Below, piece by piece: positions 42,568 to 58,021 of a stretch of 64,000 nucleotides of DNA. The DNA is taken from assembly GCF_001713355.1 (NCBI RefSeq), contig NZ_CP016448.1, forward strand, positions 2,294,001-2,358,000, in the 5' to 3' direction. The position numbers and the translations under genes are program-made. This DNA is from Methyloversatilis sp. RAC08. Its GTDB lineage: Bacteria; Pseudomonadota; Gammaproteobacteria; Burkholderiales; Rhodocyclaceae. How positions within the stretch are numbered: the first letter of the stretch is position 1; each line of letters starts with the position of its first letter. Under the pieces are notes generated by a model that ran no database searches, was not told the origin of the DNA, and saw only the letters and a list, made by a program, of their open reading frames with translations.

Positions 42568-43227
42568 ATGCCTGCACCCGCCGCGCACCTGAAACTGCCT
42601 GCCGACCTGGTCGCCTGCCACGAGTGCGACCTGCTGCAGACCGAGCCGGCACTGCTGCCCGGGCAGAGCGCGCGCTGCGTGCGCTGCGACGCCTTTCTTG
42701 CACGCAACCCGCCGGACAGCCTCGACCGCACGCTGGCGCTGACGCTGACCGCGCTGGTGCTGTACGTGATTGCCAACGTGTATCCGCTGGTCCGCCTCGA
42801 CATGCAGGGCCGCGTGGTCGCGGTGACGCTGTTCGAGGCGGTGCAGGTGCTGTGGCGCGACGGCATGATGCCGGTCGCCGCCCTCGTGTTCGGCACTGCC
42901 ATCCTGTTTCCGCTGCTCGAACTGGTGATGATCCTGCTTGTGCTGGTGCCGCTGCGGCTGGGCCGCGTGACACCGCGCATGGCGCCCTTCTTCCGGCTGG
43001 TCCGTTCGCTCAAGCCGTGGGGCATGGTCGAGGTGTTCCTGCTCGGCATGCTGGTGTCGCTGGTCAAGCTGTCGCATCTGGCCTCGGTCATTCTGGGTAC
43101 CGCTTTCTGGGCCACGGCTGCACTCATCCTTGCGCTCACGTTCGCCGGCCGGGCTTTCGACACGCGACTGCTGTGGCAGACGCCGCTGCCAGACGAGGCT
43201 GAAGACGCCCTGGTGACGGACCGATGA
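42568..43227 (+). CDS. pqiA: Paraquat-inducible protein A, N-terminal half
   Basis: A 219-residue inner-membrane protein. An N-terminal zinc-ribbon-like segment (ACHECDLLQ, CVRCDAFL) is followed by four helices (LTALVLYVIANVYPLV, AALVFGTAILFPLLELVMI and so on). It corresponds to one half of E. coli PqiA, which is a single ~417-residue protein. Its stop overlaps the start of the second half (ATGA), which ensures coupled synthesis. Part of the Pqi lipid-transport system between inner and outer membranes. Confidence 0.88.
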   Translation: MPAPAAHLKLPADLVACHECDLLQTEPALLPGQSARCVRCDAFLARNPPDSLDRTLALTLTALVLYVIANVYPLVRLDMQGRVVAVTLFEAVQVLWRDGMMPVAALVFGTAILFPLLELVMILLVLVPLRLGRVTPRMAPFFRLVRSLKPWGMVEVFLLGMLVSLVKLSHLASVILGTAFWATAALILALTFAGRAFDTRLLWQTPLPDEAEDALVTDR

Positions 43228-43883
43228 GGCGCCGCGCGCTGACCGCCCGCGAAGCCGGGCTGCTGAGCTGCCATGTGTGCGGTCAGCTGGCGCGTCCGCC
43301 TGCAGAGGGCGCACACAGCCTGCGCTGCCCGCGCTGCCGCGCACCGATGCACCTGCGCAAGCCGGCCAGTGTGTCGACCACCTGGGCGCTGCTGATCGCA
43401 TCGATCGTCATGTTCCTTCCGGCCAACCTGCTGCCGGTCATGACTACCACATCGCTGCTCGGCAGCCAGCAGGACACGATCATGAGCGGCGTCATCTTTC
43501 TGTGGCAGTCAGGCTCCTGGCCGCTGGCAGCGGTGGTGTTCTTCGCCAGCGTGATGGTGCCGCTGCTGAAGATCGTCGCGCTGGTGTATCTGACGCTGTC
43601 GGTGCAGCGTCGCTCGACGCACAACCTGCTGCAGCGCACCCGGCTGTACCGGCTGGTCGAATTCGTCGGCCGCTGGTCGATGCTCGACATCTACGTGATC
43701 ACGATGCTGGTGGCACTGGTGAGCTTCCGCGGGCTGGCAACGATAGAAGCCGGTCCCGGCGCGATTGCCTTCGGCGCCGTCGTGGTGCTCACCATGTTTG
43801 CCGCCATGAGTTTCGACCCCCGACTGATCTGGGACCCGCTGGCCAGCGGGTCTGCCGACGCCCACACTGCACACCATGACTGA
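43224..43883 (+). CDS. pqiA: Paraquat-inducible protein A, C-terminal half
   Basis: A 219-residue second PqiA half with the same plan: zinc-ribbon segment (LLSCHVCGQLARP, CPRCRAPMHLR) and four helices (LLIASIVMFLPANLLPVM, LAAVVFFASVMVPLLKIVALV). The NLLPVMTT and YVITMLVALVSF segments are typical. It overlaps the first half by 4 nt and pqiB by 8 nt. Confidence 0.88.
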   Translation: MRRRALTAREAGLLSCHVCGQLARPPAEGAHSLRCPRCRAPMHLRKPASVSTTWALLIASIVMFLPANLLPVMTTTSLLGSQQDTIMSGVIFLWQSGSWPLAAVVFFASVMVPLLKIVALVYLTLSVQRRSTHNLLQRTRLYRLVEFVGRWSMLDIYVITMLVALVSFRGLATIEAGPGAIAFGAVVVLTMFAAMSFDPRLIWDPLASGSADAHTAHHD

Positions 43884-45513
43884 ACCCGAACTGCCGACCG
43901 CCACGGTCGACGCACCGCGCCGCTTCCACATTCCGCTGGTGTGGATCATCCCGCTGGTGGCGCTGCTGATCGGCGTATTCCTCGCCGCGCGTGCCTGGTA
44001 CGAACAGGGGCCGACCATCACGATCCAGTTCAACAGCGGCGCCGGGCTCGAGCCGGGCAAGACGCGCATCAAGTACAAGGATGTCGATGTCGGCCAGATC
44101 AGCGCGGTGGCGCTGGCCGACGATGGCGCCCACGTCATCGCCACCGCGCAACTGGTGCGCGAAGCCGATCGGCTGCTGGTGACGGACACGCGTTTCTGGG
44201 TGGTCAGCGCACGCGTGTCGGGGAGCGCGGTGACCGGTCTGGGTACCTTGCTGTCGGGCGCCTATGTCGGCATGGACGCCGGTCAGTCGACCGAGCCCGG
44301 CCGCACTTTCGTCGCGCTGGACGAGGCACCGGTCATCACGCTGGACGTGCCCGGGCGCGCCTTTGCGCTGCATGCCGAAACGCTGGGATCGATCGACGTC
44401 GGCACGCCGATCTACTTCCGCCGCATCCCGGCCGGTCAGGTCACCGGCTTCAAGCTTGACGACACCGGCCAGCATCTCGACATCCAGGTGTTCATCAAGT
44501 CGCCGTACGACCGCTACGTGACCACCGACAGCCGCTTCTGGAACGCCAGCGGCATCGATGTGAAGCTCGGTGCAGAAGGGCTGCAGATCAACACCGAATC
44601 GGCCACCTCCATCCTGGCCGGCGGGCTGGCGTTCGAAACACCGGACGCTGGCGATGCCGAGCCGGCGCCTGCCGGGCTGGATTTCAGGCTGTTCGGCTCG
44701 CGCGCCGAAGCCCTGAAGCAGCCCGGATCGGATGCCCAGATCGTGCAGCTTCGCTTCACCGAAAGCGTGCGCGGCCTGTCGGTCGGCGCGCCGGTCGATT
44801 TCCGCGGCACCCAGATCGGCGAAGTGATCGCGCTCGAACCCGATGTCGATCTCGACACCGCAGACGTCGGCCTGCTGGTCGATATCGCGGTATTCCCCGA
44901 TCGCATGCGCCCACGCGCGGGCGGCAAGGCGGACGACGACTTCGATGAAGCCGCCTTCCGCACCTTCGTCGACCGGCTGGTGGCGCGCGGCCTGCGCGCG
45001 CAGCTGCGCAATGGCAATCTGGTGACCGGGCAGCTCTATGTGGCGATGGATTTCTTCCCTCCGGTCGGCAAGCAGAAGGTCGACTGGGCCGCGCGTCCGC
45101 CGCAGCTGCCGACCCAGCGCGGCAGCCTGGACGAACTGCAGGCCACGCTGTCGCGCATCGCCGGCAAGTTCGACCGCCTGCCGCTGGACGACATCGCACA
45201 GGAGACCCGCGCCGCGATTGCCGGGCTGGCGCGCGCGGTCGAGCGCACCGATCAGCTGATGCAGCGGCTCGACGGCCTTGCGTCGAACGAAGTGAGCGCC
45301 GCCGCGACCGAAACGCAGCGCACGATGGCCGAGGCGCGCGCGGCGATCGCCGATACGCGCCATCTGCTGTCGAGCGATGCGCCGCTGCAGCAGGACCTGC
45401 GCGACAGCCTGCAGGAACTTTCGCGTGCGGCGCAGTCGCTGCGCCACCTGACCGACACGCTGGAACGCCACCCCGAAGCGCTGCTGCGCGGAAAGCCCGA
45501 GGAGAAACCGTGA
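43876..45513 (+). CDS. pqiB: PqiB-type MCE-domain protein
   Basis: A 545-residue protein, the same length as E. coli PqiB (546). One N-terminal membrane helix (WIIPLVALLIGVFLAARAW) precedes three MCE domains starting near residues 48 (GPTITIQFNSGAGLEPGKT), 158 and 290 (GLSVGAPVDFRGTQIGEV), then a long coiled-coil C-terminus from ~420. MCE proteins stack into hexameric tubes that carry lipids across the periplasm. Overlaps pqiA by 8 nt and touches pqiC. Confidence 0.92.
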   Translation: MTEPELPTATVDAPRRFHIPLVWIIPLVALLIGVFLAARAWYEQGPTITIQFNSGAGLEPGKTRIKYKDVDVGQISAVALADDGAHVIATAQLVREADRLLVTDTRFWVVSARVSGSAVTGLGTLLSGAYVGMDAGQSTEPGRTFVALDEAPVITLDVPGRAFALHAETLGSIDVGTPIYFRRIPAGQVTGFKLDDTGQHLDIQVFIKSPYDRYVTTDSRFWNASGIDVKLGAEGLQINTESATSILAGGLAFETPDAGDAEPAPAGLDFRLFGSRAEALKQPGSDAQIVQLRFTESVRGLSVGAPVDFRGTQIGEVIALEPDVDLDTADVGLLVDIAVFPDRMRPRAGGKADDDFDEAAFRTFVDRLVARGLRAQLRNGNLVTGQLYVAMDFFPPVGKQKVDWAARPPQLPTQRGSLDELQATLSRIAGKFDRLPLDDIAQETRAAIAGLARAVERTDQLMQRLDGLASNEVSAAATETQRTMAEARAAIADTRHLLSSDAPLQQDLRDSLQELSRAAQSLRHLTDTLERHPEALLRGKPEEKP

Positions 45514-46124
45514 TGTCGAACTCTTTCTGGCGCGTTACCGCCTTCTGCGCAATCGCGGCATTGCTTGCCGCCTGTGGCAGCACGCCGCCGATCCGTCATT
45601 ATTCGCTCGGTCCGGTGGTTGTCGCTCCCTCGGCTGCGCCGGTCGCTGCCGAAACCGATGCCCTGACAAGTATTGTGGTCGGGCCGGTTAGCCTGCCTGC
45701 AGGCATCGACCGGCTGCAGATCGTGCGCACCGTCGACGGTGCGCGCGTCGAGATTGCCGACAGCCACCGCTGGGCCGGTTCGCTGAAGGATGAAGTCACG
45801 CGCCGTCTGGCCAGCGGCATCGTGCGGCAGACCGGCATCGGCCGGGTCGTCGCCTGGCCGCAGTCCACGCTCGCGGTGCCCACGCTCACAGTACCCATCG
45901 ACATCCAGCGCTTCGACGCCGAAGGCTTTGATCGCGTGACGCTGGAAGCCGTCTGGACGCTGCGCAAGGCAGGCCGCGACATCGCTGGCCGCCGCTTTGC
46001 CGCGAGCGAAACCGTCAGCTCGCCCGACTACGGCGCGCTCACCGCCGCTCACGGCCGCTTGGTCGATGCGCTGGCGCGCGAAGTTTCAGAAGCCCTCGTC
46101 GCCGCACAGGCTCATCAGCGCTGA
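45513..46124 (+). CDS. pqiC: PqiC-like ABC-transport auxiliary lipoprotein
   Basis: A 203-residue lipoprotein. The lipobox LLAAC places the lipidated Cys at residue 21. HYSLGP and the DUF330/ABC_trans_aux segments GPVSLPAGIDRLQIV and DSHRWAGSLKDEVTRRLA are clear; this is the outer-membrane-anchored PqiC partner. The ATG at 45513 is preceded by ggaga; a GTG one codon earlier is possible. It ends in a 10-nt convergent overlap with the phosphopantetheinyl transferase gene. Confidence 0.88.
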   Translation: MSNSFWRVTAFCAIAALLAACGSTPPIRHYSLGPVVVAPSAAPVAAETDALTSIVVGPVSLPAGIDRLQIVRTVDGARVEIADSHRWAGSLKDEVTRRLASGIVRQTGIGRVVAWPQSTLAVPTLTVPIDIQRFDAEGFDRVTLEAVWTLRKAGRDIAGRRFAASETVSSPDYGALTAAHGRLVDALAREVSEALVAAQAHQR

Positions 46125-46870
46125 CGCAAAGACACGGCTGACCAGTGCCGGCAGGACAGCCTGCTGCCGGAACCCGCGACCGCAACGGCCGCCGCGTAGC
46201 CTTCAGGCACAGGTACGCTTCTGCAGTAGCCCAGCGTCTGTGTATCGACGTCCGGGCAAAGTATCGGAGATTCCGTCCATGCGTCGGTCGAGGGCAGCAC
46301 GCTGAAGCCGTGCAAAGGTATCTGCAGGCCCTTTCCCCAAGCCTTGACGCAGGCCTCCTTGCGCGTCCAGAGCATGTAGAACAGATCGGAGCGATCGGTG
46401 TCCCCCACCCGCGCTAGGGCTGTGCGCTCGCCCGGCGAAAAGAAATGGGCGGCAACGTTGGCCAGATCATCATGCGGCACCGCGGCTTCCACATCCACGC
46501 CGATCTCTCGTCGCTGCGAAATTCCCAGCAATGCCAGCCGGCCGGAGTGGGACAGGCTGAACTGCAGGCTGGAACCGTGCTGCCACGCGAGCCGCGGTTT
46601 CCCGCAAGCACCGGTTTCCAGCATGATTTCCGATGGCGTCAGACCCAGATAGCATCCGAGCACCTCTCGAAGCATCGTATGTGCCAGCACGAACAGCGCC
46701 CGGTCGCCCGGCTTCTGCAGACGATCCGCCCGGCACCGCTCGTCCGCCGAAATGCGGGTGATCAGACTTTCGTTACCGTACGCTTCGTCGAGGTGCGCGC
46801 GCCACAGATGAATGTCGTCGCCCGTCATCTGCGGGAAATGCGCCGGCACATCCCAGAGACAATCTTTCAT
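46115..46870 (-). CDS. Sfp-type 4'-phosphopantetheinyl transferase
   Basis: A 251-residue enzyme that moves phosphopantetheine from CoA to the Ser of carrier domains. Motifs: GKPRL (90-94), FSLSHS (104-109), IGVDVE (123-128) with Mg-binding Asp and Glu, and WTRKEA (168-173). The size and the WxxKEA form mark the broad-specificity Sfp/PcpS class. It overlaps the NRPS gene by 4 nt at its start, so it is the last gene of that operon and should activate the two NRPS carrier domains and the one fused to the ligase. Confidence 0.93.
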   Translation of the reverse strand: MKDCLWDVPAHFPQMTGDDIHLWRAHLDEAYGNESLITRISADERCRADRLQKPGDRALFVLAHTMLREVLGCYLGLTPSEIMLETGACGKPRLAWQHGSSLQFSLSHSGRLALLGISQRREIGVDVEAAVPHDDLANVAAHFFSPGERTALARVGDTDRSDLFYMLWTRKEACVKAWGKGLQIPLHGFSVLPSTDAWTESPILCPDVDTQTLGYCRSVPVPEGYAAAVAVAGSGSRLSCRHWSAVSLRQR

Positions 46871-49800
46871 GGTGCAGCGACACCCTGGAACATCGTCTCG
46901 GCCTCATCAAGGCGATTCTGCAATTGACGGGCCAGTTCGTTGACCAGTGGTGGTTTCACCATCAGACCGTGAGTGCCCGGGACGTTGTGAACCGAAAGGT
47001 GCGTGACAAAGGTCGACCAGCCGAGGCTCGGCTCGCTTGCCTCGCGTAGTGATTCCTCGGCAAGGTAAAGATCGACCTCACCCGAATAAGCCGAAGGATG
47101 ATATCCCCAGTGTGCCCACCAGTGCGCTGAGGCCGCATCCGGAAAGCCGCGTGATGGCGTCCTGCCGAGGGCACTCAGCGCCGCATGTGCGAGGCGCTGA
47201 CGATTCATGTAGGGGCGTACCCTGCAGCGCAACCAGTCAAGCACGCCGGGGCCGCGCGGGCGCAGATGTACGCCGGGGGCATAGGTATCCAGCAGCGCCA
47301 GCACACTGACGGTTTCGCCGGCGGCGCTCAACTGCTGTGCCATTTCGAATGCAACGGTTCCGCCGCTGGAAAAACCGGCAAGGCGATAAGGCCCGTATGG
47401 CTGTGCCTCGCGCATCGACGCCACGCAGTCGGCAGCGATGTCCGCCAGTCTGTGGTGAGGTGTTTCCCTTCCGCCCGCGCCCCTTGCGTTCAGGCCGAAG
47501 ACGGGCTGTCGGGGCGAAAGCGCGCGCGCCAGCTCGAAATAGTGAAAGAGGTTGCCGCCGATGGTGTGCACGCAGAACAGAGGTGGCTTGTCGCCGCCAG
47601 GCTTGATCGGAACGAGAAGCGGCCAGCGGGTACCGACGGTCTGACTGCGCACCGCAGCGGCGATGTCGCGTATCGAACTGCCGCGAAACCACAGTGTGTC
47701 CAGAGGCAGGCGCTCGCCGAACGTGCGGGCAATCGCATCGACCAGTCGTACAGCCATCAGCGAATGGCCACCGATTTCGAAGAAGTCCTGATCAAGGCCG
47801 ATGTCACTGCGTTCAAAAAGGGACTCCCATATCCCGAGCAGATGCCGTTCGACGATGTCTCCCGGGCGACCGGTGTCGGGCGACGATGGAATGCCCTTGG
47901 CGCGCGGACTGTCCTGCGGTGGCGGCAGTTTGTCGCGATCGAGTTTGCCGTTGGGTGTGATCGGGAAGGCGTCGAGGACGATGAAGGAAGAAGGGAGCAT
48001 GTGCGCAGGCAGGGTCAGTGCGAGTTGTGCGCGCAGCCGGGTTGGCTCGATGCTGTCGCCGGCGACGTAGGCGACGAGACGTGTTTCGCCGGGCCGGTCT
48101 TCACGCAGCATCACGGTGGCCTGATTCACGGCGGGAAGCGTGGTGAGTGCGGCTTCGATTTCACCGGGTTCTATGCGGAAACCCCGGAGCTTGATCTGTT
48201 GATCGAAGCGGCCGAGGAATTCGATGTTTCCGTCGTGTAGCCAGCGTACCCGGTCACCTGTGCGGTAGAGTCGGGCGCCTGGCCGGTCGCTGAAGGGGTG
48301 AGCGACGAATTTCTCCGAGGTCAGGTCGGGTCGTCCCAGATAGCCGCGTGCGAGGCCTGCGCCGCCGATGTAGAGCTCGCCTTCGACCCCGACCGGTACG
48401 GGTTGGCGCGAGGCATCGAGCACGAACACTTCCGTGTTCGCGATCGGCCGACCGATCGGGATCGAGCCGCGTGCAGTCAACAAACCGGATGGAATCCGGT
48501 GACAGCAGGTGAAGGTCGTACTTTCGGTCGGGCCGTAGCCATTGATCAGTTGCACGCCTGGCAGTGCGTCAAGCGCCCGCTGAACGTGTGCCACCGACAA
48601 CGCCTCTCCGCCCGTCAGCAATAGGCGCAGACCGCGCAGCGCCTCCGGGCGCTCGTCGATCACGGCGTTGAACAGTGCAGCCGTGAGCCATAGCGTGGTC
48701 ACGCCATTGCGCGAGATGACAGCCTCCAGACCGGCGGCGGTCGGCAGCTCATCCGGATAAATCACGCAGCGTGCGCCGTGCAGCAGCGCGCCCCACACTT
48801 CGAAGGTCGATGCATCGAAGGCCATCGGTGCCAGCTGCAGGAAGGTTTCTTCCGGCCCGAACGATGCGTAATCGGTATGGCAGACCAGTCGGGCGACGTT
48901 GCGTTGTTCAACCATCACGCCTTTTGGCTGACCGGTTGAACCGGAGGTGTAGATGACGTAGGCGAGGTTTTCGGAAGAGGCGGAGTGGAGCGGGTTGTCG
49001 TCAGGCTGTTGATCGAGTGCGGCATGGTCATCGACACAGAGCGTATGGCCTGGATGCCGTGGCAGTTTCGACATCAGGGCGTGCTGGGTGAGGACGACGG
49101 GTGCTGCGGTGTCCTGGAGCATGTAGGCGAGCCGTGCTACTGGATAGGCGGGATCGAGCGGTACGTAGGCACCGCCGGCCTTCACTATTCCGAGCAGTCC
49201 GGTGACCAGTTCGATGGAGCGCTGCAGATGGAGCCCGACCATGACGTCGGGCCCGACGCCGTGCGCGCGCAGGGCGTGGGCGATGCGGTTGGCCCGGGCG
49301 TTGAGTTCGGTGTAGGTGAGGGACTGTTCGGCGCAGACCAGCGCGATGGCATCGGGCGTGCGTGCGACCTGTGCTTCGAACAAAGAGGCGAGGGTGGCAT
49401 CGCGCGGGTAATCGGTCTGCGTTGCGTTCCACTGGACCAGCATGCGTTGCTGTTCGGCGGACGTGAGCAAAGGTAGCCGGCTGATCGGCGTATCCGGCTG
49501 TGCCACGACGGACTCGAGCAGCGTCTGGAAGTGGCCGGCCATGAGCCGGACGCGGCGCTCGTCGAAGAGGTCGGTTGCGTACTCGAACAAGCCCGACAGG
49601 CCGTCTGCCGTCTCGGTCAGCTCCAGCGTCAGGTCGAACTTCGCGATGCCGCTTTCGCGCACGAGCCGATGGCAGTGTGCGCCGTCGAGTTCGAGCGCAA
49701 CGTGAGGCGTGTTCTGAAGCGAGAACATGACCTGGAACAGGGGGTTTCGGCTCGGGTCGCGCACCGGTCGCAGCGCCTCCACCAGCTTCTCGAAAGGCAT

Positions 49801-52800
49801 CTGCGCATGGTCGAAGGCGCCCAGTGCTGTCTCGCGCACGTGCTCAAGCACCTCCCGAAACCTGGCATGGATCGGCAACTTGGTGCGCAGCACCAGCGTG
49901 TTCACGAAGAAGCCGATCAGCGTCTCGAGCTCGACCTGTCCGCGACCGGCCACGGGTGTTCCCACGGCGATGTCGCTGTGCCCGCTCGCGCGAGCGAGCA
50001 GGACCTTGAAGGCAGCAAGCAGCACCATGTAGAGCGTGCCGCCGGCGTCCCGACCGAGTCCGCGCAGGCGCGAGGTCAGCTCGGTGGCGATCTCGAAGGG
50101 CACCACGGCGCCGCGGTAGCTTGGCTGCGCGGGACGGGCATGATCGGTCGGCAGGGCGAGCAGCGGCAGATCGGCCAGCTGGGTACGCCAGTAATCGAGC
50201 TGCTTCTGTAGGATGGGTCCGGACAGCGTTTCGCGCTGCCACAACGCGTAGTCGGCGTACTGCACCGGCAGGTCAGGCAGCCTGGCGTCACCGCCCTGCA
50301 GCGCGGCTGAGTAGAGCGCACCGAGCTCGCGGTTGAGCACGCCTTGCGACCAGCCGTCGGAGCCGATGTGGTGAATGACCAGCTGTAGCACGTGCTCGTC
50401 CTGGCCCACGTGCCAGAGCGCGACGCGCATCAGCGGAGGGGTGCCCAGATCGAAGGGGTGCGCACCGTGTGACTGCATGCGTGACGCAAGCGCGCGCGCG
50501 CGCTCGGGTGCGTCGATGCTGCGCAGGTCCTGGACGGACAGCACGCAGCGTGCCGAGGGCACAATGCGCTGTGCCGGTTCGCCGGCGACCTCGATGAAAC
50601 CGGTGCGCAGCGACTCATGGCGTGCGACCAGCGCATCGAGCGCGTTCTGCAGCGCGGTGACATCGAGCGGGCCACGGACCTCCAGCTCCTGCACGATGTG
50701 ATACAGCGATGTGCCCGGCTCCCACTGCTCCAGAAACCACAGTCGGGACTGTGCGAACGAGCAGCGCACTGGCGCCGGGAAGGGCCGCGCGACCGGTGGA
50801 ATGGCGTCGGAAATCCCGTCCGTGCGTGCTTTCTGCAGCAGGCGTGCCATGCCTTCAATGGTCGGCGCATCGAACACGCTGCGTGGTGTCAGGTTGCAGT
50901 TGAACACGCTGCGCAGGCGGCTGACGAGCTTCGCCGCCAGTAGGGAATGTCCGCCCAGCTCGAAGAAATGATCGTGTATGCCCATCCGCTGCAAGCCGAG
51001 TGTGTCTGCCCAGATGTCGGTCAGCGCCTCCTCGATGGGCGTACGCGGTGCCGCATAGTCATCGGATGCGAGACTCGATTCCGATTTCGGCAATTTGTCG
51101 CGATCGAGTTTGCCGTTGGGTGTGATCGGGAAGGCGTCGAGGACGATGAAGGAAGAAGGGAGCATGTGCGCAGGCAGGGTCAGTGCGAGTTGTGCGCGCA
51201 GCCGGGTTGGCTCGATGCTGTCGCCGGCGACGTAGGCGACGAGACGTGTTTCGCCGGGCCGGTCTTCACGCAGCATCACGGTGGCCTGATTCACGGCGGG
51301 AAGCGTGGTGAGTGCGGCTTCGATTTCACCGGGTTCTATGCGGAAACCCCGGAGCTTGATCTGTTGATCGAAGCGGCCGAGGAATTCGATGTTTCCGTCG
51401 TGTAGCCAGCGTACCCGGTCACCTGTGCGGTAGAGTCGGGCGCCTGGCCGGTCGCTGAAGGGGTGAGCGACGAATTTCTCCGAGGTCAGGTCGGGTCGTC
51501 CCAGATAGCCGCGTGCGAGGCCTGCGCCGCCGATGTAGAGCTCGCCTTCGACCCCGACCGGTACGGGTTGGCGCGAGGCATCGAGCACGAACACTTCCGT
51601 GTTCGCGATCGGCCGACCGATCGGGATCGAATTCTGCTCGGTCCCGACAATAGTCCGGCAAGTCGCATCGATGGTGGTTTCCGTTGGGCCGTAGACGTTA
51701 TGCAGTGTTGCCTTCGTGCGGCTGCGGAAGGTATGTGCCAGGGAAGGATCGAGTACTTCACCGCCGCAGAACACGTGGCGCAGGGCAGCACAGGCTGTGA
51801 CGCCGGGTTCGTCCAGCATGGGTCTCAATGTCGACGGCGTCAGATCCCATATCGATACGCTATTGACGCGCGTCAGTTCAACCAGCGCTGCGCTGTCGGT
51901 ACGTTCGTCGTCGAGTGCAATCACACATCGGCCACCGGTAAACAGGCAGGCGAATAGCTGACCGACCGACACGTCGAAATTGATCGAAGCCTGCATCAGT
52001 ATTCCGTCGACATCGCTGATTCCGAATGTGTCGATCAGCCAGTGCATGCGATTGCTGACCGCTGCGTGACTGACCATCACGCCTTTTGGCTGACCGGTTG
52101 AACCGGAGGTGTAGATGACGTAGGCGAGGTTTTCGGAAGAGGCGGAGTGGAGCGGGTTGTCGTCAGGCTGTTGATCGAGTGCGGCATGGTCATCGACACA
52201 GAGCGTATGGCCTGGATGCCGTGGCAGTTTCGACATCAGGGCGTGCTGGGTGAGGACGACGGGTGCTGCGGTGTCCTGGAGCATGTAGGCGAGCCGTGCT
52301 ACCGGATAGGCGGGATCGAGCGGTACGTAGGCACCGCCGGCCTTCACTATTCCGAGCAGTCCGGTGACCAGTTCGATGGAGCGCTGCAGATGGAGCCCGA
52401 CCATGACGTCGGGCCCGACGCCGTGCGCGCGCAGGGCGTGGGCGATGCGGTTGGCCCGGGCGTTGAGTTCGGTGTAGGTGAGGGACTGTTCGGCGCAGAC
52501 CAGCGCGATGGCATCGGGCGTGCGTGCGACCTGTGCTTCGAACAAAGAGGCGAGGGTGGCATCGCGCGGGTAATCGGTCTGCGTTGCGTTCCACTGGACC
52601 AGCATGCGTTGCTGTTCGGCGGACGTGAGCAAAGGTAGCCGGCTGATCGGCGTATCCGGCTGTGCCACGACGGACTCGAGCAGCGTCTGGAAGTGGCCGG
52701 CCATGAGCCGGACGCGGCGCTCGTCGAAGAGGTCGGTTGCGTACTCGAACAAGCCCGACAGGCCGTCTGCCGTCTCGGTCAGCTCCAGCGTCAGGTCGAA

Positions 52801-54138
52801 CTTCGCGATGCCGCTTTCGCGCACGAGCCGATGGCAGTGTGCGCCGTCGAGTTCGAGCGCAACGTGAGGCGTGTTCTGAAGCGAGAACATGACCTGGAAC
52901 AGGGGGTTTCGGCTCGGGTCGCGCACCGGTCGCAGCGCCTCCACCAGCTTCTCGAAAGGCATCTGCGCATGGTCGAAGGCGCCCAGTGCTGTCTCGCGCA
53001 CGTGCTCAAGCACCTCCCGAAACCTGGCATGGATCGGCAACTTGGTGCGCAGCACCAGCGTGTTCACGAAGAAGCCGATCAGCGTCTCGAGCTCGACCTG
53101 TCCGCGACCGGCCACGGGTGTTCCCACGGCGATGTCGCTGTGCCCGCTCGCGCGAGCGAGCAGGACCTTGAAGGCAGCAAGCAGCACCATGTAGAGCGTG
53201 CCGCCGGCGTCCCGACCGAGTCCGCGCAGGCGCGAGGTCAGCTCGGTGGCGATCTCGAAGGGCACCACGGCGCCGCGGTAGCTTGGCTGCGCGGGACGGG
53301 CATGATCGGTCGGCAGGGCGAGCAGCGGCAGATCGGCCAGCTGGGTACGCCAGTAATCGAGCTGCTTCTGTAGGATGGGTCCGGACAGCGTTTCGCGCTG
53401 CCACAACGCGTAGTCGGCGTACTGCACCGGCAGGTCAGGCAGCCTGGCGTCACCGCCCTGCAGCGCGGCTGAGTAGAGCGCACCGAGCTCGCGGTTGAGC
53501 ACGCCTTGCGACCAGCCGTCGGAGCCGATGTGGTGAATGACCAGCTGTAGCACGTGCTCGTCCTGGCCCACGTGCCAGAGCGCGACGCGCATCAGCGGAG
53601 GGGTGCCCAGATCGAAGGGGTGCGCACCGTGTGACTGCATGCGTGACGCAAGCGCGCGCGCGCGCTCGGGTGCGTCGATGCTGCGCAGGTCCTGGACGGA
53701 CAGCACGCAGCGTGCCGAGGGCACAATGCGCTGTGCCGGTTCGCCGGCGACCTCGATGAAACCGGTGCGCAGCGACTCATGGCGTGCGACCAGCGCATCG
53801 AGCGCGTTCTGCAGCGCGGTGACATCGAGCGGGCCACGGACCTCCAGCTCCTGCACGATGTGATACAGCGATGTGCCCGGCTCCCACTGCTCCAGAAACC
53901 ACAGTCGGGACTGTGCCCAGGAGCAGGGTTGCCTATCTTCCCGCCGACCGTCTTGCTGTTCGGTCCATTGAGACTGCGGCCGGACGGATATCGTCGAATG
54001 CCGGGCAGCATGCGATTGCATTCGTGCCCTCAAGGCATCGAGTTGCCCGGTGCTCAGGGATGCAAAGCGGGAGCTGGGGTCACTCATTGGACGTAGGCTC
54101 TCGGGCATCGACTGTCTGGATGCTTGCTGCATGTGCAT
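46867..54138 (-). CDS. Two-module nonribosomal peptide synthetase (C-A-PCP-C-A-PCP-TE)
   Basis: A 2423-residue synthetase. Approximate domains: C1 70-500 (HHIGSDG ~200), A1 520-1020 (TSGSTGQPKG ~675), PCP1 1035-1110 (GGHSLLAA ~1063), C2 1120-1555 (HHIGSDG ~1257), A2 1575-2080, PCP2 2095-2165 (GGHSLMAV ~2123), thioesterase 2170-2410 (GFSSGG ~2256). No epimerase or MbtH gene. By-eye specificity codes: A1 DVGDFGVID-K (close to ornithine codes), A2 DAFWLGGTF-K (valine). Because it begins with a C domain it needs an acyl donor, probably the ligase-PCP protein of the operon. The start is uncertain: an in-frame ATG at 54087 is also possible. The two modules are almost identical outside the A cores. 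Confidence 0.95.
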   Translation of the reverse strand: MHMQQASRQSMPESLRPMSDPSSRFASLSTGQLDALRARMQSHAARHSTISVRPQSQWTEQQDGRREDRQPCSWAQSRLWFLEQWEPGTSLYHIVQELEVRGPLDVTALQNALDALVARHESLRTGFIEVAGEPAQRIVPSARCVLSVQDLRSIDAPERARALASRMQSHGAHPFDLGTPPLMRVALWHVGQDEHVLQLVIHHIGSDGWSQGVLNRELGALYSAALQGGDARLPDLPVQYADYALWQRETLSGPILQKQLDYWRTQLADLPLLALPTDHARPAQPSYRGAVVPFEIATELTSRLRGLGRDAGGTLYMVLLAAFKVLLARASGHSDIAVGTPVAGRGQVELETLIGFFVNTLVLRTKLPIHARFREVLEHVRETALGAFDHAQMPFEKLVEALRPVRDPSRNPLFQVMFSLQNTPHVALELDGAHCHRLVRESGIAKFDLTLELTETADGLSGLFEYATDLFDERRVRLMAGHFQTLLESVVAQPDTPISRLPLLTSAEQQRMLVQWNATQTDYPRDATLASLFEAQVARTPDAIALVCAEQSLTYTELNARANRIAHALRAHGVGPDVMVGLHLQRSIELVTGLLGIVKAGGAYVPLDPAYPVARLAYMLQDTAAPVVLTQHALMSKLPRHPGHTLCVDDHAALDQQPDDNPLHSASSENLAYVIYTSGSTGQPKGVMVSHAAVSNRMHWLIDTFGISDVDGILMQASINFDVSVGQLFACLFTGGRCVIALDDERTDSAALVELTRVNSVSIWDLTPSTLRPMLDEPGVTACAALRHVFCGGEVLDPSLAHTFRSRTKATLHNVYGPTETTIDATCRTIVGTEQNSIPIGRPIANTEVFVLDASRQPVPVGVEGELYIGGAGLARGYLGRPDLTSEKFVAHPFSDRPGARLYRTGDRVRWLHDGNIEFLGRFDQQIKLRGFRIEPGEIEAALTTLPAVNQATVMLREDRPGETRLVAYVAGDSIEPTRLRAQLALTLPAHMLPSSFIVLDAFPITPNGKLDRDKLPKSESSLASDDYAAPRTPIEEALTDIWADTLGLQRMGIHDHFFELGGHSLLAAKLVSRLRSVFNCNLTPRSVFDAPTIEGMARLLQKARTDGISDAIPPVARPFPAPVRCSFAQSRLWFLEQWEPGTSLYHIVQELEVRGPLDVTALQNALDALVARHESLRTGFIEVAGEPAQRIVPSARCVLSVQDLRSIDAPERARALASRMQSHGAHPFDLGTPPLMRVALWHVGQDEHVLQLVIHHIGSDGWSQGVLNRELGALYSAALQGGDARLPDLPVQYADYALWQRETLSGPILQKQLDYWRTQLADLPLLALPTDHARPAQPSYRGAVVPFEIATELTSRLRGLGRDAGGTLYMVLLAAFKVLLARASGHSDIAVGTPVAGRGQVELETLIGFFVNTLVLRTKLPIHARFREVLEHVRETALGAFDHAQMPFEKLVEALRPVRDPSRNPLFQVMFSLQNTPHVALELDGAHCHRLVRESGIAKFDLTLELTETADGLSGLFEYATDLFDERRVRLMAGHFQTLLESVVAQPDTPISRLPLLTSAEQQRMLVQWNATQTDYPRDATLASLFEAQVARTPDAIALVCAEQSLTYTELNARANRIAHALRAHGVGPDVMVGLHLQRSIELVTGLLGIVKAGGAYVPLDPAYPVARLAYMLQDTAAPVVLTQHALMSKLPRHPGHTLCVDDHAALDQQPDDNPLHSASSENLAYVIYTSGSTGQPKGVMVEQRNVARLVCHTDYASFGPEETFLQLAPMAFDASTFEVWGALLHGARCVIYPDELPTAAGLEAVISRNGVTTLWLTAALFNAVIDERPEALRGLRLLLTGGEALSVAHVQRALDALPGVQLINGYGPTESTTFTCCHRIPSGLLTARGSIPIGRPIANTEVFVLDASRQPVPVGVEGELYIGGAGLARGYLGRPDLTSEKFVAHPFSDRPGARLYRTGDRVRWLHDGNIEFLGRFDQQIKLRGFRIEPGEIEAALTTLPAVNQATVMLREDRPGETRLVAYVAGDSIEPTRLRAQLALTLPAHMLPSSFIVLDAFPITPNGKLDRDKLPPPQDSPRAKGIPSSPDTGRPGDIVERHLLGIWESLFERSDIGLDQDFFEIGGHSLMAVRLVDAIARTFGERLPLDTLWFRGSSIRDIAAAVRSQTVGTRWPLLVPIKPGGDKPPLFCVHTIGGNLFHYFELARALSPRQPVFGLNARGAGGRETPHHRLADIAADCVASMREAQPYGPYRLAGFSSGGTVAFEMAQQLSAAGETVSVLALLDTYAPGVHLRPRGPGVLDWLRCRVRPYMNRQRLAHAALSALGRTPSRGFPDAASAHWWAHWGYHPSAYSGEVDLYLAEESLREASEPSLGWSTFVTHLSVHNVPGTHGLMVKPPLVNELARQLQNRLDEAETMFQGVAAP
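47929..48465. repeat. NRPS module repeat, A-domain C-terminal segment (module 2 copy)
   Basis: 537 bp identical as far as I can see to 51094-51630 (offset 3165). Encodes the adenylation-domain part from IPIGRPI through PNGKLDRDKLP. Confidence 0.9.
48911..50754. repeat. NRPS module repeat, C domain and A-domain N-terminal segment (module 2 copy)
   Basis: 1844 bp matching 52073-53916 (offset 3162). The only difference I found is T at 49141 against C at 52303, a silent change in a Pro codon. Encodes from AQSRLWFLEQ of the C domain to TSGSTGQPKGVMV of the A domain. Confidence 0.9.
51094..51630. repeat. NRPS module repeat, A-domain C-terminal segment (module 1 copy)
   Basis: Partner of 47929-48465; sharp boundaries on both sides, beyond which the two modules differ. 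Confidence 0.9.
52073..53916. repeat. NRPS module repeat, C domain and A-domain N-terminal segment (module 1 copy)
   Basis: Partner of 48911-50754, with the single silent difference noted there. The intervening non-identical patch in this module is 51631-52072 (442 bp), against 48466-48910 (445 bp) in module 2. Confidence 0.9.
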
Positions 54139-54175
54139 GTTTCGTGTGCATTGATTCCGCCCGATTCACCTGTGA

Positions 54176-55900
54176 TTAACCTTCAAGCGGGTCGATCTGT
54201 ATCTGTATCAATGCCGGTCGTCGCAAGCTCAGCGCGCGCGCCAGCGCCTCGGGCAATGCATCGATCGCGTCCAGACAGACGGCATCCACCCCGAGTTGGC
54301 GCGCCATTTCGTCGTAACGCAGTCCCGCCTGATAGACAAGAATCCGTTCGTGGTGACCGGCCGGAAACGCGCTGCGCTGGCGTCGGGCGCCGGAAGGGCC
54401 ATCGTTGTTCGCCAGTACCACGACGACCGGCACGCCATGTCGTACCGCTGTTTCGAATTCAAAGAAGTTGAGGCTCAGCGCCATGTCTCCGGTGACGACG
54501 ATTACCGGACGTTCCGGACAGGCATGCGCAGCACCGATCGCGAACGGCAGCCCCGTACCCATGCAGCCGCTGGTACCGGGGGTCAGGCGCGACAGCGGAA
54601 TGCCGGCGGACAGGTGCTTCTGCACCGCAAGCAAAGTGATGTTGCCATCAAGCACCACGATGGCGTCTTGTGGCAGCACCCGCGCAAGTACTGCTGCAAG
54701 CTCGTCGGGAGTCGGGGGGCGACAGGGCGGGCGCTGAACGTTCCGGACCAGCGGTGCATCGGGCGGCCAGCTTGTCGATCTGCTGCGATGCGTACCGGCG
54801 TGTTCGCGCTGGCGCAAGCCCTCCAGCAGCGCCGGCAGGATGGCCGACGCGGCACCCCGGAGTGTCAAGGTCCGTGGTGGTCCGCCATGGAAGGCTTCAT
54901 CGGCGCAGTCGATATGGACGACGCGCGCGTCAGGCCGGATCTCGCTGCCATAGCGGAAGGTCCAGTTCAGGCGGGCTCCGACCACAAGCACCACATCTGC
55001 ATCGGCCAGTAATCGGCTCTGGTCTGCCGTGCGCGAAAGCGGATGGTCATCGGGCAACAATCCGCGCCCCATCGGCGATGCCACGAAGGGCAACGCCAGG
55101 TGTTCGGCAAGCTCACGTAGATGGAGGTAGGCATCGTCCCATCGCACACCCTTGCCGAACAGCATGAGTGGCCGTTGTGCCGCCAGCAGAAGATCAGCGG
55201 CCCGTCCGACCATCGCGGACAGTTCGCTCGTCACGGTGTTGTTGCGCACGCGCGCGGCCTCGAAACGGGGCTTTTCGGCAACAGAGCCGGACAGACAGTC
55301 GTCGGGCAGTTCAACGTAGACCGCACCGGGACGACCTTCCATCGCGGTGTGCACGGCATCGGCGAGCTGTGCTGCAATCGTGCCCGCAGAATCGATGCAC
55401 ACGCATGCCTTGGCGATCCGGCCTGCGACAGCGACGCCGTCAAGCTCCATGAAGGCGCCGGTGCCGCGGGCCGAACGTTCGACAGCGCCGGCCAGCAGTA
55501 CGACCGGCCAGCAGTTCTCTTGCGCAACGAGCAGGCCCGTCAACGCGTTCGTCACGGCAACGCCGCTGGACACCATGGCTACGCTTGCGAGGCGCCCCGC
55601 CATGTAGTTGTGCGCCGCTGCCATCATCACGGCTGCCTGCTGATGGCGAACGCCTGTCGTATCCATGCCGGCGCGCGCGCAGGCGCCGATCGTTTCGTCG
55701 GTCGGCAGGCCCGGCATGGCGTAAAGATGGGTCACGCCGAGGGAGTGGAGGCTGCGCGCGACGATGTCGTGGCCGCGCACGCGGCCCGCACGCAGCCTGA
55801 CTTCGAAAGCCTTGCGCTGGGTAGGACCGAGGCGTTGCAGACGTTCGATGACAGCGTCTGCGGGCAAACCGGGTTTGCCGTTGTCAGGGCGTGTGCTCAT
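54176..55900 (-). CDS. ThDP-dependent enzyme of the 2-hydroxyacyl-CoA lyase/oxalyl-CoA decarboxylase type
   Basis: A 574-residue thiamine-diphosphate enzyme with the three-domain fold of acetolactate synthase relatives. NCWPVVLLAGAVERS and GAFMELDGV resemble 2-hydroxyacyl-CoA lyases and oxalyl-CoA decarboxylases more than acetolactate synthase. The cofactor motif GDMALS...NND is intact near 471-500. The position that holds the catalytic Glu (RHE-Q) reads RHQQ: Gln87 replaces it (codon CAG). An extra ~40-residue N-terminal piece contains LQRLGPTQRKAFEVRLR, similar to the segments that precede C domains in NRPSs. Lies 22 nt after the ligase-PCP gene and 37 nt before the NRPS gene, so it is co-transcribed and probably acts on a carrier-bound acyl group. 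Confidence 0.85.
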   Translation of the reverse strand: MSTRPDNGKPGLPADAVIERLQRLGPTQRKAFEVRLRAGRVRGHDIVARSLHSLGVTHLYAMPGLPTDETIGACARAGMDTTGVRHQQAAVMMAAAHNYMAGRLASVAMVSSGVAVTNALTGLLVAQENCWPVVLLAGAVERSARGTGAFMELDGVAVAGRIAKACVCIDSAGTIAAQLADAVHTAMEGRPGAVYVELPDDCLSGSVAEKPRFEAARVRNNTVTSELSAMVGRAADLLLAAQRPLMLFGKGVRWDDAYLHLRELAEHLALPFVASPMGRGLLPDDHPLSRTADQSRLLADADVVLVVGARLNWTFRYGSEIRPDARVVHIDCADEAFHGGPPRTLTLRGAASAILPALLEGLRQREHAGTHRSRSTSWPPDAPLVRNVQRPPCRPPTPDELAAVLARVLPQDAIVVLDGNITLLAVQKHLSAGIPLSRLTPGTSGCMGTGLPFAIGAAHACPERPVIVVTGDMALSLNFFEFETAVRHGVPVVVVLANNDGPSGARRQRSAFPAGHHERILVYQAGLRYDEMARQLGVDAVCLDAIDALPEALARALSLRRPALIQIQIDPLEG

Positions 55901-55922
55901 CGGGCATGACCTCGGTACTTGA

Positions 55923-57749
55923 TCAATCGGGAACTGGCGTGATCTCGTCGAGGATGCGCTCCACCTCGGCTATGACGTCCGGCCCGAGCCGGTCGCATAT
56001 CGTTCGGGCCAGCCCGGCTGCGGTGGGCTGGTGGAAGATGTCGGTAGCGGATAGCTCGATCGGCAGCATCGACGCGATTCGCGCCGCAGCGCGTGTCGCT
56101 TTCAGTGAATCGCAGCCGAGGGCAAAGAAATTGTCGTCCATGCCGATGACGTCGACCTCCAGCACCTCGTTCCACACCTGCGCGAGGATGGCCTCGATCG
56201 CGTCCCTCGGTGCGACGAAAGCGTGCTGACGCGCTGCGCCGAGACGCTCGGCCATGCCAATGCGCTGCACCTTGCCGGTCGGACCTTTCGGAATCTCGAG
56301 CAGCAGGATGATTTCGCTGGGTACCTTGAAGCCGGCAAGGCAACCAAACAGGAACTCACGCAAGGTATCGGGGCCGACCGTACTGCCAGGGTGCAGAACC
56401 ACCGCTGCGGCAAGGTCCTCGCCAAGCGTCGGATGCGGCAGAGCGAACGCCACCGCCTCTTTGACCTCTGGGTGGGCGAGCAGGGCCTCGTCAATCTCGC
56501 GCGGCGCAATCTTCTCGCCGCCGCGATTGATCATTTCCTTGAGGCGGCCTGTAATGCGCAGGTAACCGTCCGCGTCGAAGCAGCCCTCATCGCCGGTGCG
56601 GAACCAGCCGTTCGTAAATGCGGCAAGGTTCGCTTCCGGATTGGCGTGATAGGCGCGCATCACGTTGTCGCCGCGGATGGCGATCTCGCCACACTCGCCG
56701 GAAGGCAGCGGAACACCGTGGGCCGAGAGGATCGCCATCTCGGGCCCGGCTGGAAGGCCGACAGAGCCGGGCTTTCTTTGAGCGGGTGGCAGCGGATTGC
56801 TGGCCATCTGATGTGTCGCTTCGGTCATGCCGTAGGCTTCGAGCACCGGACAGGCGAACCACGTTTCGAGCTGCGCCAGTGTGGCAGGTGCCAGGGCGGC
56901 GGACGATGAACGTATGAAGCGCAACAGGGGTGCGGACGGTTGCCGAATGCTCCCGCTCGCAGTGGCACCGATGATGGCCTGGTGCATGGTCGGCACAGCT
57001 GAATACCATGTCGCACCGAAGCGTTCGAGCCACTCGAAGAATGCCGGCAGCTGAAGCGAAGGCGCGCAGACGACGCTGCCACCGCCGGCAAGTGGCGCCA
57101 GCAAACCGGCCATCAGACCGTGAATGTGAAAGAGCGGCATCACATTGAGTGCCCGATCGGCTTGCGTCAGACGAAGCGAGGCGACGATGTTTGCCATGGA
57201 GGCCGCCAGATTCGCGTGGCTCAGAGGCACCTGCTTGGGCCGCGAAGTCGTCCCCGAGGTGTGCAGCACGAGTGCGATATCGTCGTTTCGGGGGAGGGTT
57301 CTGGGCCGCTCGGGAGCCGGTTCCGCGGCATCCCATAGCGACGGGCCAGCCTCGATGACGGGCACTCCGCGCTGGGCTGCGATAGCGCGAGCCAGTGGCG
57401 GGCTATCCGGCGTAACGACCAGTGCACGTGCTTCGAGATCGTGCAGGAAAAATTCAAGCTCCGCCTGCCGATAGCCCGGGTTGAGCGGCGCGCAGACCGA
57501 GGCGTGCATCACGCCAAGCAGGGCCGACGCCATGTCCGTGCTGTTCGGAGCGATGACGGCCACGCGGTCGGCAGTGCCGATACCGGCCTCGTTCAGGCGG
57601 GAGGCAAGTCGACGCATGCGTGCCGAGAGCGCTGCATGCGACACGCTGTTGCCATTGATGTCGAGCAGTGCCGGCAGGTCCGCCGAGGACGGTTGCGGGG
57701 CGTCGAACACACGATGGATCTGCGCCGGAGAGTGAAAGGTTGCTGGCAT
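55923..57749 (-). CDS. Acyl-adenylating ligase (oxalyl-CoA synthetase-like) fused to a carrier domain
   Basis: A 608-residue A-PCP protein. The adenylation part (1-510) has HTSGTTSRPK, MPLFHIHGL and FIRSSSAALAPATLAQLE...PVLEAYGMTEATHQMASNPLPP, which closely recalls plant AAE3 and yeast Pcs60 oxalyl-CoA synthetases, and the ending LKEMINRGGEKIAPREID and PTGKVQR. The C-terminal ~90 residues are a phosphopantetheine carrier with FFALGCDSLKA (Ser near 548). It most likely loads a small carboxylic acid onto its own carrier as the NRPS starter. ATG at 57749 fits the family start; an ATG at 57866 would add 39 unconserved residues. First gene of the NRPS operon. Confidence 0.87.
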   Translation of the reverse strand: MPATFHSPAQIHRVFDAPQPSSADLPALLDINGNSVSHAALSARMRRLASRLNEAGIGTADRVAVIAPNSTDMASALLGVMHASVCAPLNPGYRQAELEFFLHDLEARALVVTPDSPPLARAIAAQRGVPVIEAGPSLWDAAEPAPERPRTLPRNDDIALVLHTSGTTSRPKQVPLSHANLAASMANIVASLRLTQADRALNVMPLFHIHGLMAGLLAPLAGGGSVVCAPSLQLPAFFEWLERFGATWYSAVPTMHQAIIGATASGSIRQPSAPLLRFIRSSSAALAPATLAQLETWFACPVLEAYGMTEATHQMASNPLPPAQRKPGSVGLPAGPEMAILSAHGVPLPSGECGEIAIRGDNVMRAYHANPEANLAAFTNGWFRTGDEGCFDADGYLRITGRLKEMINRGGEKIAPREIDEALLAHPEVKEAVAFALPHPTLGEDLAAAVVLHPGSTVGPDTLREFLFGCLAGFKVPSEIILLLEIPKGPTGKVQRIGMAERLGAARQHAFVAPRDAIEAILAQVWNEVLEVDVIGMDDNFFALGCDSLKATRAAARIASMLPIELSATDIFHQPTAAGLARTICDRLGPDVIAEVERILDEITPVPD

Positions 57750-58021
57750 GGGTACCTTGCGTAAGAACGGGTCTGCACGGGCAGCGAAGGTGGGCCCGCC
57801 ATCGATCGGTCCGCCGTCTTCGGCGTCATCCGAACAGCCCCGATGGTTATACGAAATCGATCTCATATTAAGCAGCCCGCGGCATGCGCATCGTTACGAA
57901 TTGGCAACCCGATGAATGTGTCGGCGTGGCATGCCGACTGTCGTGAGGAAATCCGCACTCGGATCGGTCATCGGGTACGCTCGCGCCCTGACAAGGCACT
58001 CGCCGTGACCCATTGCGTCCC
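57750..58021. other. Divergent promoter region between NRPS operon and radical SAM gene
   Basis: 272 bp that must hold promoters for the minus-strand NRPS operon and the plus-strand radical SAM gene. It includes a relatively AT-rich stretch near 57840-57870 (ggttatacgaaatcgatctcatattaag). I see no clear palindromic operator, riboswitch or regulator gene. Confidence 0.4.

Follow-up and report, generated by a model that had tools for sequence, protein, structure and literature searches.

An NRPS operon with a candidate oxalate-type starter and a ThDP enzyme clade carrying Gln in place of the catalytic Glu

Glyoxylate carboligase is a ThDP enzyme that joins two carbon units. The excerpted text of PMC3534367 places Val at the catalytic-Glu position of glyoxylate carboligases. 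In oxalyl-CoA decarboxylase (OXC), a Tyr-Glu pair is part of a network of waters that has been proposed as the route for protonating the intermediate, and the substitutions E135G, A415C, Y497F and S568G shifted an engineered OXC from decarboxylation to carboligation (PMC8411744, in the sections excerpted). The corresponding excerpt of PMC11271303 describes lid residues of HACL/S (R545, K546, Q548 and W552) that touch the acyl-CoA. Outside the ThDP enzymes, a conserved active-site Ser accompanies oxalate-forming activity (PMC8224569, excerpt).

The window, a 64,000-nucleotide stretch of the Methyloversatilis sp. RAC08 genome, contains a minus-strand operon of four genes related to several of these systems, in the order ligase-PCP, ThDP enzyme, NRPS and PPTase. 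The genes are separated by 22 and 37 bases and the last pair overlaps by 4 bases; our analysis confirms the four-gene operon as genuine. The ligase starts at 57866 or 57749; the latter, the start chosen in the first-pass annotation, is Met40 of the longest open reading frame and is the better match to three relatives from the same genus. The features are as follows.

55923..57749 (-): ligase-PCP, adenylate-forming, oxalate-CoA-ligase-like; longest ORF from 57866 (Pfam, solved relatives)
55998..56186 (-): ligase PCP (residues 561-623), with motif FALGCDSL (Pfam)
54176..55900 (-): ThDP enzyme, NRPS-linked clade adjoining OXC/HACL (Pfam, solved relatives, tree)
55640..55642 (-): Gln87 codon, at the place of the ThDP-enzyme catalytic Glu (alignment)
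55787..55864 (-): leader-like N-terminal extension, approximately residues 13-38 of the ThDP enzyme (leader profile)
46867..54138 (-): NRPS, C-A-T-C-A-T-TE (Pfam)
52073..53926 (-): copy 1 of an NRPS-internal repeat, covering the C domain plus the N-terminal portion of A (1854 bases)
48911..50764 (-): copy 2 of the same repeat (1854 bases)
46115..46870 (-): PPTase, Sfp/HetI-like (Pfam ACPS)

The ligase combines Pfam AMP-binding, AMP-binding_C and PP-binding domains. Of the solved acyl-CoA ligases, those for oxalate lie nearest to it: the three top structures are oxalate-CoA ligases (407, 385 and 360 bits), followed by linear gramicidin synthetase (278 bits) and malonyl-CoA synthetase (232 bits), and a profile of seven cluster ligases scores oxalate-CoA ligases at 544, 526 and 470 bits and the next solved structure at 378. 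The oxalate-CoA ligases/oxalyl-CoA synthetases (PDB 5ie0, 6qjz and 8aff) match it best over the adenylation domain, and it shares with them the stretch TEA-x-H-x-M-x-SN-x-LP, which is present as an exact pattern in 12 of the 13 cluster ligases, but it differs from them in having its own PCP and in belonging to an NRPS operon. A C-terminal PCP is found in all ten ThDP-linked and all three ThDP-free cluster ligases, none of which is thus a free-standing enzyme; in 12 of 13 Methyloversatilis genomes a paralogue lies at another site, and its match stops before the PCP. The ligase scores below the NCBIfam cut-off of its best-listed model (FadD7, 405 versus 650 bits). These solved relatives and the PP-binding domain bear out the first-pass annotation, which had read the gene as a ligase of the oxalyl-CoA-synthetase type with its own carrier. 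A long-chain fatty-acid (lipopeptide) starter is disfavored, because the ligase is far nearer to oxalate-CoA ligases than to the listed solved fatty-acyl ligases.

The ThDP enzyme has all three Pfam TPP_enzyme domains (N, M and C) and the GD...N cofactor motif, as expected of the POX/decarboxylase superfamily. Its nearest solved structures are HACL/OXC enzymes, and the ten NRPS-linked ThDP enzymes form a single clade (support 100/100) adjoining OXC/HACL, in line with the OXC/HACL relationship that had been proposed for this gene. The enzyme falls below the NCBIfam OXC equivalog cut-offs (287 versus 557 bits and 261 versus 739 bits). We rejected an acetolactate-synthase-type role, as acetolactate synthase structures score well under HACL/OXC.

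The clade departs from its neighbors at several functional positions. Position 87 is Gln in all ten NRPS-linked enzymes and Glu in all 14 other rows of the alignment, which include four near-copies from Methyloversatilis; two further ThDP rows with internal stops (L032 and L033) were excluded. The cofactor-motif residues D472 and N499 are kept throughout the clade (10/10). The OXC Tyr-Glu pair, whose residues Y134 and E135 were assigned to alignment columns by us rather than by PMC8411744, occurs only in E. coli Oxc among the 14 other rows (1/14) and in no clade member. At these columns the clade has an invariant Phe150 (10/10) followed by Met, Thr or Gln (Gln in five of ten, Met or Thr in Methyloversatilis), and the window enzyme, with Gln87 and Phe150-Met151, has neither the catalytic Glu nor the Tyr-Glu of an OXC. 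Because 13 of the 14 other rows likewise have Phe-Gln there, including acetolactate-synthase-like ones and other non-HACL enzymes, the missing pair marks the clade as not OXC-like and nothing further. The lid tail RKPQxFxW is absent from all ten clade members and present in four of the 14 other rows, namely those with the HACL-type RNEQ stretch; it is also missing from the remaining ten, E. coli Oxc included, and CoA use is therefore compatible with a missing lid tail. Tail length was dropped as a criterion because one cluster's ThDP enzyme (L037) has a 19-residue tail.

Relative to HACL/S and OXC (PDB 8vza, 6xn8, 2q27 and 2c31), then, the clade is alike in nearest solved structure, tree group and three TPP domains but has Gln for Glu, lacks both RKPQxFxW and Tyr-Glu and, in several members, carries an NRPS-type leader. 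Glyoxylate carboligase (PDB 2pan) also lacks the canonical Glu, although it has Val where the clade has Gln and is much less similar (225 versus 426 bits). Since replacing the catalytic Glu by Gln usually cripples ThDP enzymes, the Gln87 protein could be slow or functionally changed. Gln87 and the missing Tyr-Glu and HACL lid motifs were not foreseen in the first-pass annotation.

The N-terminal extension of the ThDP enzyme contains a stretch resembling the leader that precedes NRPS C domains, clear in six relatives and weak in the window member. With a profile built from nine NRPS N-termini, six of the ten NRPS-linked ThDP enzymes exceed every reported shuffle (1000 shuffles, 618 reported, maximum 9.2 bits), the window enzyme (2.1 bits) and that of L039 (0.3 bits) score low, and none of the 14 other rows, six of them reported, rises above 0 bits. 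The six high scores speak for docking on the carrier, the low ones of the window enzyme and L039 against it. An AlphaFold2 model from a 4-row alignment is poor (mean pLDDT 60), and the helices drawn in the extension carry no weight because pLDDT there is below 50.

The NRPS comprises two Condensation, two AMP-binding, two PP-binding and one Thioesterase domain by Pfam, with HHxxxDG in C, as a C, A, T and TE assembly requires. The two copies of its internal 1854-base repeat are 99.8% identical. Read by eye at what we take to be the pocket positions, the adenylation domains give DVGDFGVIDK (A1, unassigned) and DAFWLGGTFK (A2), which, under the codes that we assume for Val, Gln and basic residues, are presumably basic-like and Val-like, respectively.

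The ligase, ThDP enzyme and NRPS occur together in five of 13 Methyloversatilis genomes and in five other genomes. All four genes are present in six of these ten, and the remaining four clusters are cut by contig ends. Because the set recurs elsewhere in shuffled order, it is not a chance neighborhood; its presence in other genomes also counts in favor of the first-pass reading, which our results support in part. Loci that duplicate genes of other loci (L001, L003-L006, L010, L017, L018, L024-L027) were left out, as was L038. A plasmid collection gave 992 matching records, none of which reached 60% identity; the 20 matches listed were at no more than 32%.

Three sister clusters (L055, L056 and L057) lack a ThDP gene but have the ligase-PCP, the NRPS and the PPTase, and the first two are nested among ThDP-bearing clusters. 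We rejected an assembly gap as the cause in these two, in which the NRPS directly follows the ligase on long contigs. In the genome of L057 (G799), a ThDP gene of the Gln type lies on a separate contig, so a ThDP enzyme could act from elsewhere there. Such clusters, whose starter does not need the ThDP step, had not been foreseen; given the three of them, this step looks like an optional edit rather than an obligatory one.

A gene resembling petal death protein (PDP)/oxaloacetate hydrolase lies inside three clusters outside Methyloversatilis (L011, L012 and L021), at three different positions, and a fourth non-Methyloversatilis genome has such a gene on another contig. The three cluster proteins are nearest to PDP; two have a PEP_mutase domain, and the third was placed in the ICL/PEP-mutase family by alignment. 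They match PDP and oxaloacetate acetylhydrolase (PDB 1zlp and 3lye) at Ser229, which aligns with the active-site Ser of both and is Pro in two methylisocitrate lyases and two other compared enzymes, but the window has no counterpart. No oxaloacetate-hydrolase-like gene was found in four of the five ThDP-bearing Methyloversatilis genomes, the window's own included, so oxalate would have to come from elsewhere in these four; G001 and G799 gave weak matches only. In the three clusters the extra gene would supply oxalate, which independently supports an oxalate-derived starter.

We therefore consider a short NRPS pathway that begins from an oxalate-type starter, uses ThDP carboligation on the carrier and adds a Val-like second residue to be plausible, if a little short of an even prospect. 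Oxalate is probably the source of its first building block. The ligase would adenylate oxalate, or a small acid closely resembling it, and would load this acid onto its own PCP as oxalyl-S-PCP. The ThDP enzyme would dock on the carrier instead of binding CoA and attack the oxalyl thioester; after decarboxylation, the carbanion/enamine would be transferred to an aldehyde or other carbonyl acceptor to give 2-hydroxyacyl-S-PCP or, as a second choice, undergo plain protonation to formyl-S-PCP. The first C domain would then acylate the module 1 residue, module 2 would add a Val-like residue, and the TE would release an acyl-dipeptide, with the PPTase activating the carriers. The genes, their domains, the clade, the Gln substitution, the missing HACL lid motif, the recurrence and the co-occurrence with an oxaloacetate-hydrolase-like gene are observed; we infer that oxalate is the substrate, that the chemistry is carrier-bound and proceeds by carboligation, and which amino acids and product are involved. 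A more specific version is possible but doubtful: that the Gln-for-Glu clade performs a nucleophilic one-carbon extension on a PCP, turning oxalyl-S-PCP into a formyl-anion equivalent that joins an aldehyde to form a 2-hydroxyacyl NRPS starter, with oxalate from a dedicated oxaloacetate hydrolase in the three non-Methyloversatilis clusters.

Gln in place of Glu and the missing Tyr-Glu and lid motifs make carboligation on the carrier appear more likely, and plain OXC chemistry on CoA less likely. We identified no aldehyde acceptor or aldehyde-making gene, which tells against carboligation. Decarboxylation might also take place on the carrier, with oxalyl-PCP becoming formyl-PCP and the first C domain yielding an N-formyl peptide, the option put first in the first-pass annotation; this would fit the pairing of the ligase with an OXC/HACL relative and the oxalate-supply gene, and it would require no second substrate. 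We regard it as unlikely, because the Tyr-Glu pair of the protonation network proposed in the excerpt of PMC8411744 is missing from all ten enzymes and the general Glu is Gln. Decarboxylation of oxalyl-PCP with carboligation to an aldehyde is thus favored over formyl-PCP release.

That the ligase loads glyoxylate, glycolate, malonate or a 2-hydroxy acid, with the ThDP enzyme cleaving or editing it or making a free building block off the carrier by 2-oxo acid chemistry, seems to us quite improbable. The superfamily of the PDP-like gene also has members that release glyoxylate or 2-oxo acids, and the ThDP-free sister clusters are compatible with such a starter, but the extra gene carries the oxalate-former Ser marker, oxalate-CoA ligases stand clearly first among the solved relatives of the ligase, and acetolactate synthases score under OXC/HACL. 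It is very improbable that the ThDP protein became non-catalytic upon the Glu-to-Gln change and acts only as a structural or docking partner: Gln in every clade member and the absence of the gene from three related clusters would agree with this, but the cofactor-motif residues are kept in all ten, conservation is deep in a clade spanning several families, and glyoxylate carboligases have Val at the Glu position (PMC3534367, excerpt).

A search of the open-access PMC literature found no such pathway among the papers listed, a result that applies to that corpus, with subscription papers mostly outside it, and does not show absence in print. If the favored carboligation on the carrier is true, the operon would represent a new kind of NRPS starter and a natural carrier-bound counterpart of the oxalyl/formyl-CoA chemistry now engineered for one-carbon carboligation. 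Glyoxylate carboligase already offers one natural test of ThDP catalysis without the canonical Glu; the Glu-to-Gln change, conserved across this clade, would add another. Natural pairs of sister clusters, one having the ThDP gene and one lacking it, make the question directly testable through metabolite comparison.

The operon under study occupies the minus strand in the order ligase-PCP, ThDP enzyme, NRPS and PPTase, the first three genes being 22 and 37 bases apart and the last two overlapping by 4 bases, in a genome assembled as one contig of 3.94 Mb. The ligase start adopted in the first-pass annotation, 57749, corresponds to Met40 of the longest ORF and agrees better with the starts of three relatives from the same genus. 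On the opposite strand, PqiA, MlaD-domain and ABC_trans_aux lipoprotein genes adjoin the operon (42568-46124, plus strand), and a divergent gene at 58013-59944 (plus strand) encodes a radical SAM protein whose B12-binding match is weak; the congeneric genome G005 has a similar gene close to its cluster (L016:12857-14779).

We compared ten NRPS-linked ThDP enzymes: those of the window and of G005 (83% identical to the window's), G001, G002 and G003 from the same genus, of two gammaproteobacterial MAGs (loci L011 and L012), of G372 and G392 from one family of the same class, and of G799 from the same order. All ten share a cluster with a ligase-PCP gene and an NRPS gene or its beginning. The complete four-gene set is visible in the window and in loci L011, L012, L013, L014 and L015; L016, L021, L037 and L039 are truncated by contig ends and show no PPTase gene. 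The gene set sought in other genomes recurs, and its order varies, an oxaloacetate-hydrolase-like gene (OAH) being interspersed in three loci:

L011: ligase, OAH, NRPS, ThDP enzyme, PPTase
L012: ligase, ThDP enzyme, OAH, NRPS, PPTase
L021: ligase, OAH, ThDP enzyme, C domain

That the genes stay together despite this reshuffling argues for their belonging to one pathway. Sulfotransferase-like and glycosyltransferase genes flank the L011 cluster (L011:12579-17428), L012 also has glycosyltransferases, and at L039:5293-7899 the neighbour of the ligase-PCP and ThDP genes encodes a TauD-type dioxygenase fused to a C domain.

The best solved relatives of the ThDP enzyme are HACL/S and OXC, consistent with its initial assignment. 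In a tree with 14 other ThDP sequences, including E. coli Oxc and four near-copies from Methyloversatilis, the ten NRPS-linked members form one clade (support 100/100). At position 87 (window numbering), the place of the catalytic Glu, all ten carry Gln and all 14 others Glu; every member of the clade retains D472 and N499, which belong to the cofactor site. Where E. coli Oxc has its Tyr-Glu pair, the clade has Phe followed by Met, Thr or Gln; because Phe-Gln also occupies this place in 13 of the 14 other sequences, the missing pair shows only that these enzymes are not OXC-like. The RKPQxFxW tail, counterpart of residues R545, K546, Q548 and W552 that touch acyl-CoA in one HACL/S (PMC11271303, in part), is present in none of the clade and in four other sequences, exactly those with the RNEQ stretch. 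Because E. coli Oxc and the nine remaining sequences also lack it, its absence counts against HACL-type CoA binding in the clade, not against CoA binding generally.

The ThDP gene occurs in 5 of 13 Methyloversatilis genomes. In wider searches, which scored no more than three first-look candidates for each genome so that misses are possible, 369 evenly sampled genomes of the class gave four matches at 1e-120 (G000, the window's own genome, and G372 with Gln; G225 and G326 with Glu), 398 genomes of the phylum gave only the window's own, and 399 genomes of the order gave 11, with G000 and G799 of Gln type, seven others all Glu, and two with internal stops kept out of the alignment. The order of G372 gave two matches in 23 genomes, and the family of G799 one in two. 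When 84,980 genomes, one per species, were scanned with a peptide pattern, a method sensitive to close relatives only, three relatives were confirmed and no member of the G001-G003 type appeared. From these counts, the Gln-type clade looks rare yet spread across several families.

The first-pass description of the ligase as resembling oxalyl-CoA synthetase with its own PCP is supported by its three best solved relatives, all oxalate-CoA ligases (407, 385 and 360 bits), followed by linear gramicidin synthetase (278 bits) and malonyl-CoA synthetase (232 bits). The gap is wider for a profile of seven cluster ligases (544, 526 and 470 bits; next, 378), and the ligase falls below the cut-offs of all NCBIfam models listed for it. 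Cluster ligases share a TEA-x-H-x-M-x-SN-x-LP stretch with the solved oxalate-CoA ligases; the exact pattern occurs in 12 of 13 PCP-bearing cluster ligases and two of four without PCP. Among 339 genomes of the class, the sole PCP-length match was the window's own, and matches in three other genomes stop before the PCP. Of the 13 Methyloversatilis genomes searched, 12 have an oxalate-ligase-like match without PCP; one such enzyme in G000 adjoins TctC and TctB genes of a carboxylate importer (L058, G000:C1 1763001-1780000).

When 18 genomes were searched with the ligase, seven of the 13 from Methyloversatilis had PCP-length matches, namely the five ThDP-bearing genomes plus G007 and G012, neither of which has a Gln-type ThDP gene; G799 had a second such match. 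The three corresponding regions of G007, G012 and G799 carry ligase-PCP, NRPS and PPTase, with no match to the ThDP proteins within them; the ThDP gene of G799 lies on a different contig. The ligase phylogeny joins G007 to the window pair as its sister (93/88) and G012, likewise as sister, to the group of G001-G003 (100/99), a distribution that either loss of the ThDP gene on two lineages or its transfer would explain. In both cases the assembly line can run without the ThDP step, which looks more like a modification of the starter than its source.

OXC and HACL proceed through a common carbanion/enamine intermediate, which OXC forms by decarboxylating oxalyl-CoA, and OXC engineered with E135G, A415C, Y497F and S568G shifts from decarboxylation to carboligation with formaldehyde, a change ascribed to a lost water network at the mutated residues (PMC8411744, in part). 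The OXC pair is missing from the cluster ThDP enzymes. Glyoxylate carboligases, in which Val replaces Glu (PMC3534367, in part), indicate that a ThDP enzyme can function without the catalytic Glu. On this basis we infer that the ThDP enzyme would decarboxylate oxalyl-PCP and join the resulting intermediate to an aldehyde; decarboxylation ending in formyl-PCP is the runner-up.

The OAH proteins of L011 (P0009) and L012 (P0014) match PEP_mutase and ICL, and that of L021 is 57% identical to P0009. Their best solved relative is the petal death protein, which also produces oxalate. In pairwise alignment, Ser229 falls on a Ser of the petal death protein and oxaloacetate acetylhydrolase, in contrast to the Pro of dimethylmalate lyase, carboxyphosphonate mutase and two methylisocitrate lyases. 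We read Ser229 as the probable counterpart of the conserved active-site Ser that accompanies oxaloacetate hydrolase activity (PMC8224569). Among ten genomes searched, strong matches occurred in G381, G382, G372 and G392 (that of G392 retains the Ser and sits on a different contig, at its end) and weak ones in G001 (77 bits) and G799 (70 bits), with none at 1e-15 in G000, G002, G003 and G005.

The ThDP enzymes also carry an N-terminal extension. A leader profile built solely on nine N-termini of NRPSs in these clusters gave six of the ten enzymes scores between 9.3 and 21.3 bits, against a maximum of 9.2 bits in shuffled controls (618 of 1000 shuffles reported), and scored above 0 in none of the 14 other ThDP sequences; the remaining four scored 7.2 (L016), 5.1 (L013), 2.1 (window) and 0.3 bits (L039). 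This is good evidence for a putative NRPS-type docking leader in several members and weak evidence for the window's.

The window NRPS contains two C, two A, two T and one TE domain (Pfam). Its pockets, read by eye, are DVGDFGVIDK (A1) and DAFWLGGTFK (A2), the latter presumably the valine code but for one letter; the NRPSs of G001-G003 have an additional domain with DAWQFGLIDK, which we take to be the glutamine code. The NRPSs at L014:2918-11767 (one of the G001-G003 loci) and L055:3591-12716 (the ThDP-free G007 cluster) have three A, three T and two C domains, one A-T unit lacking its own C; L013 and L015 likewise have three A but two C motifs. The G007 pockets are of the same kinds in a different order (script reading, last two code letters shifted one residue, some open). 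Within the window, the modules are 99.8% identical in DNA between 52073-53926 and 48911-50764 (1854 bases) and between 51088-51630 and 47923-48465 (543 bases), with an unrelated A-domain core between. The pattern suggests a recent duplication or conversion in which the A core was naturally exchanged, or may be an assembly effect; L055 has a 99.95% repeat across 1872 bases.

As first proposed, no described pathway with this gene set was found in the open-access literature, keyword matches being unrelated in the parts available (PMC12141560 and PMC5209427 contain the search words; PMC3870968 concerns a Methyloversatilis universalis PLP-domain protein). For an activated-sludge bin of Methyloversatilis, PMC10681181 counts three NRPS clusters, all lacking complete modules, and the consulted part does not show the present gene set. 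We regard the system as a variation on known NRPS pathways whose unusual starter route would include a distinct ThDP clade.
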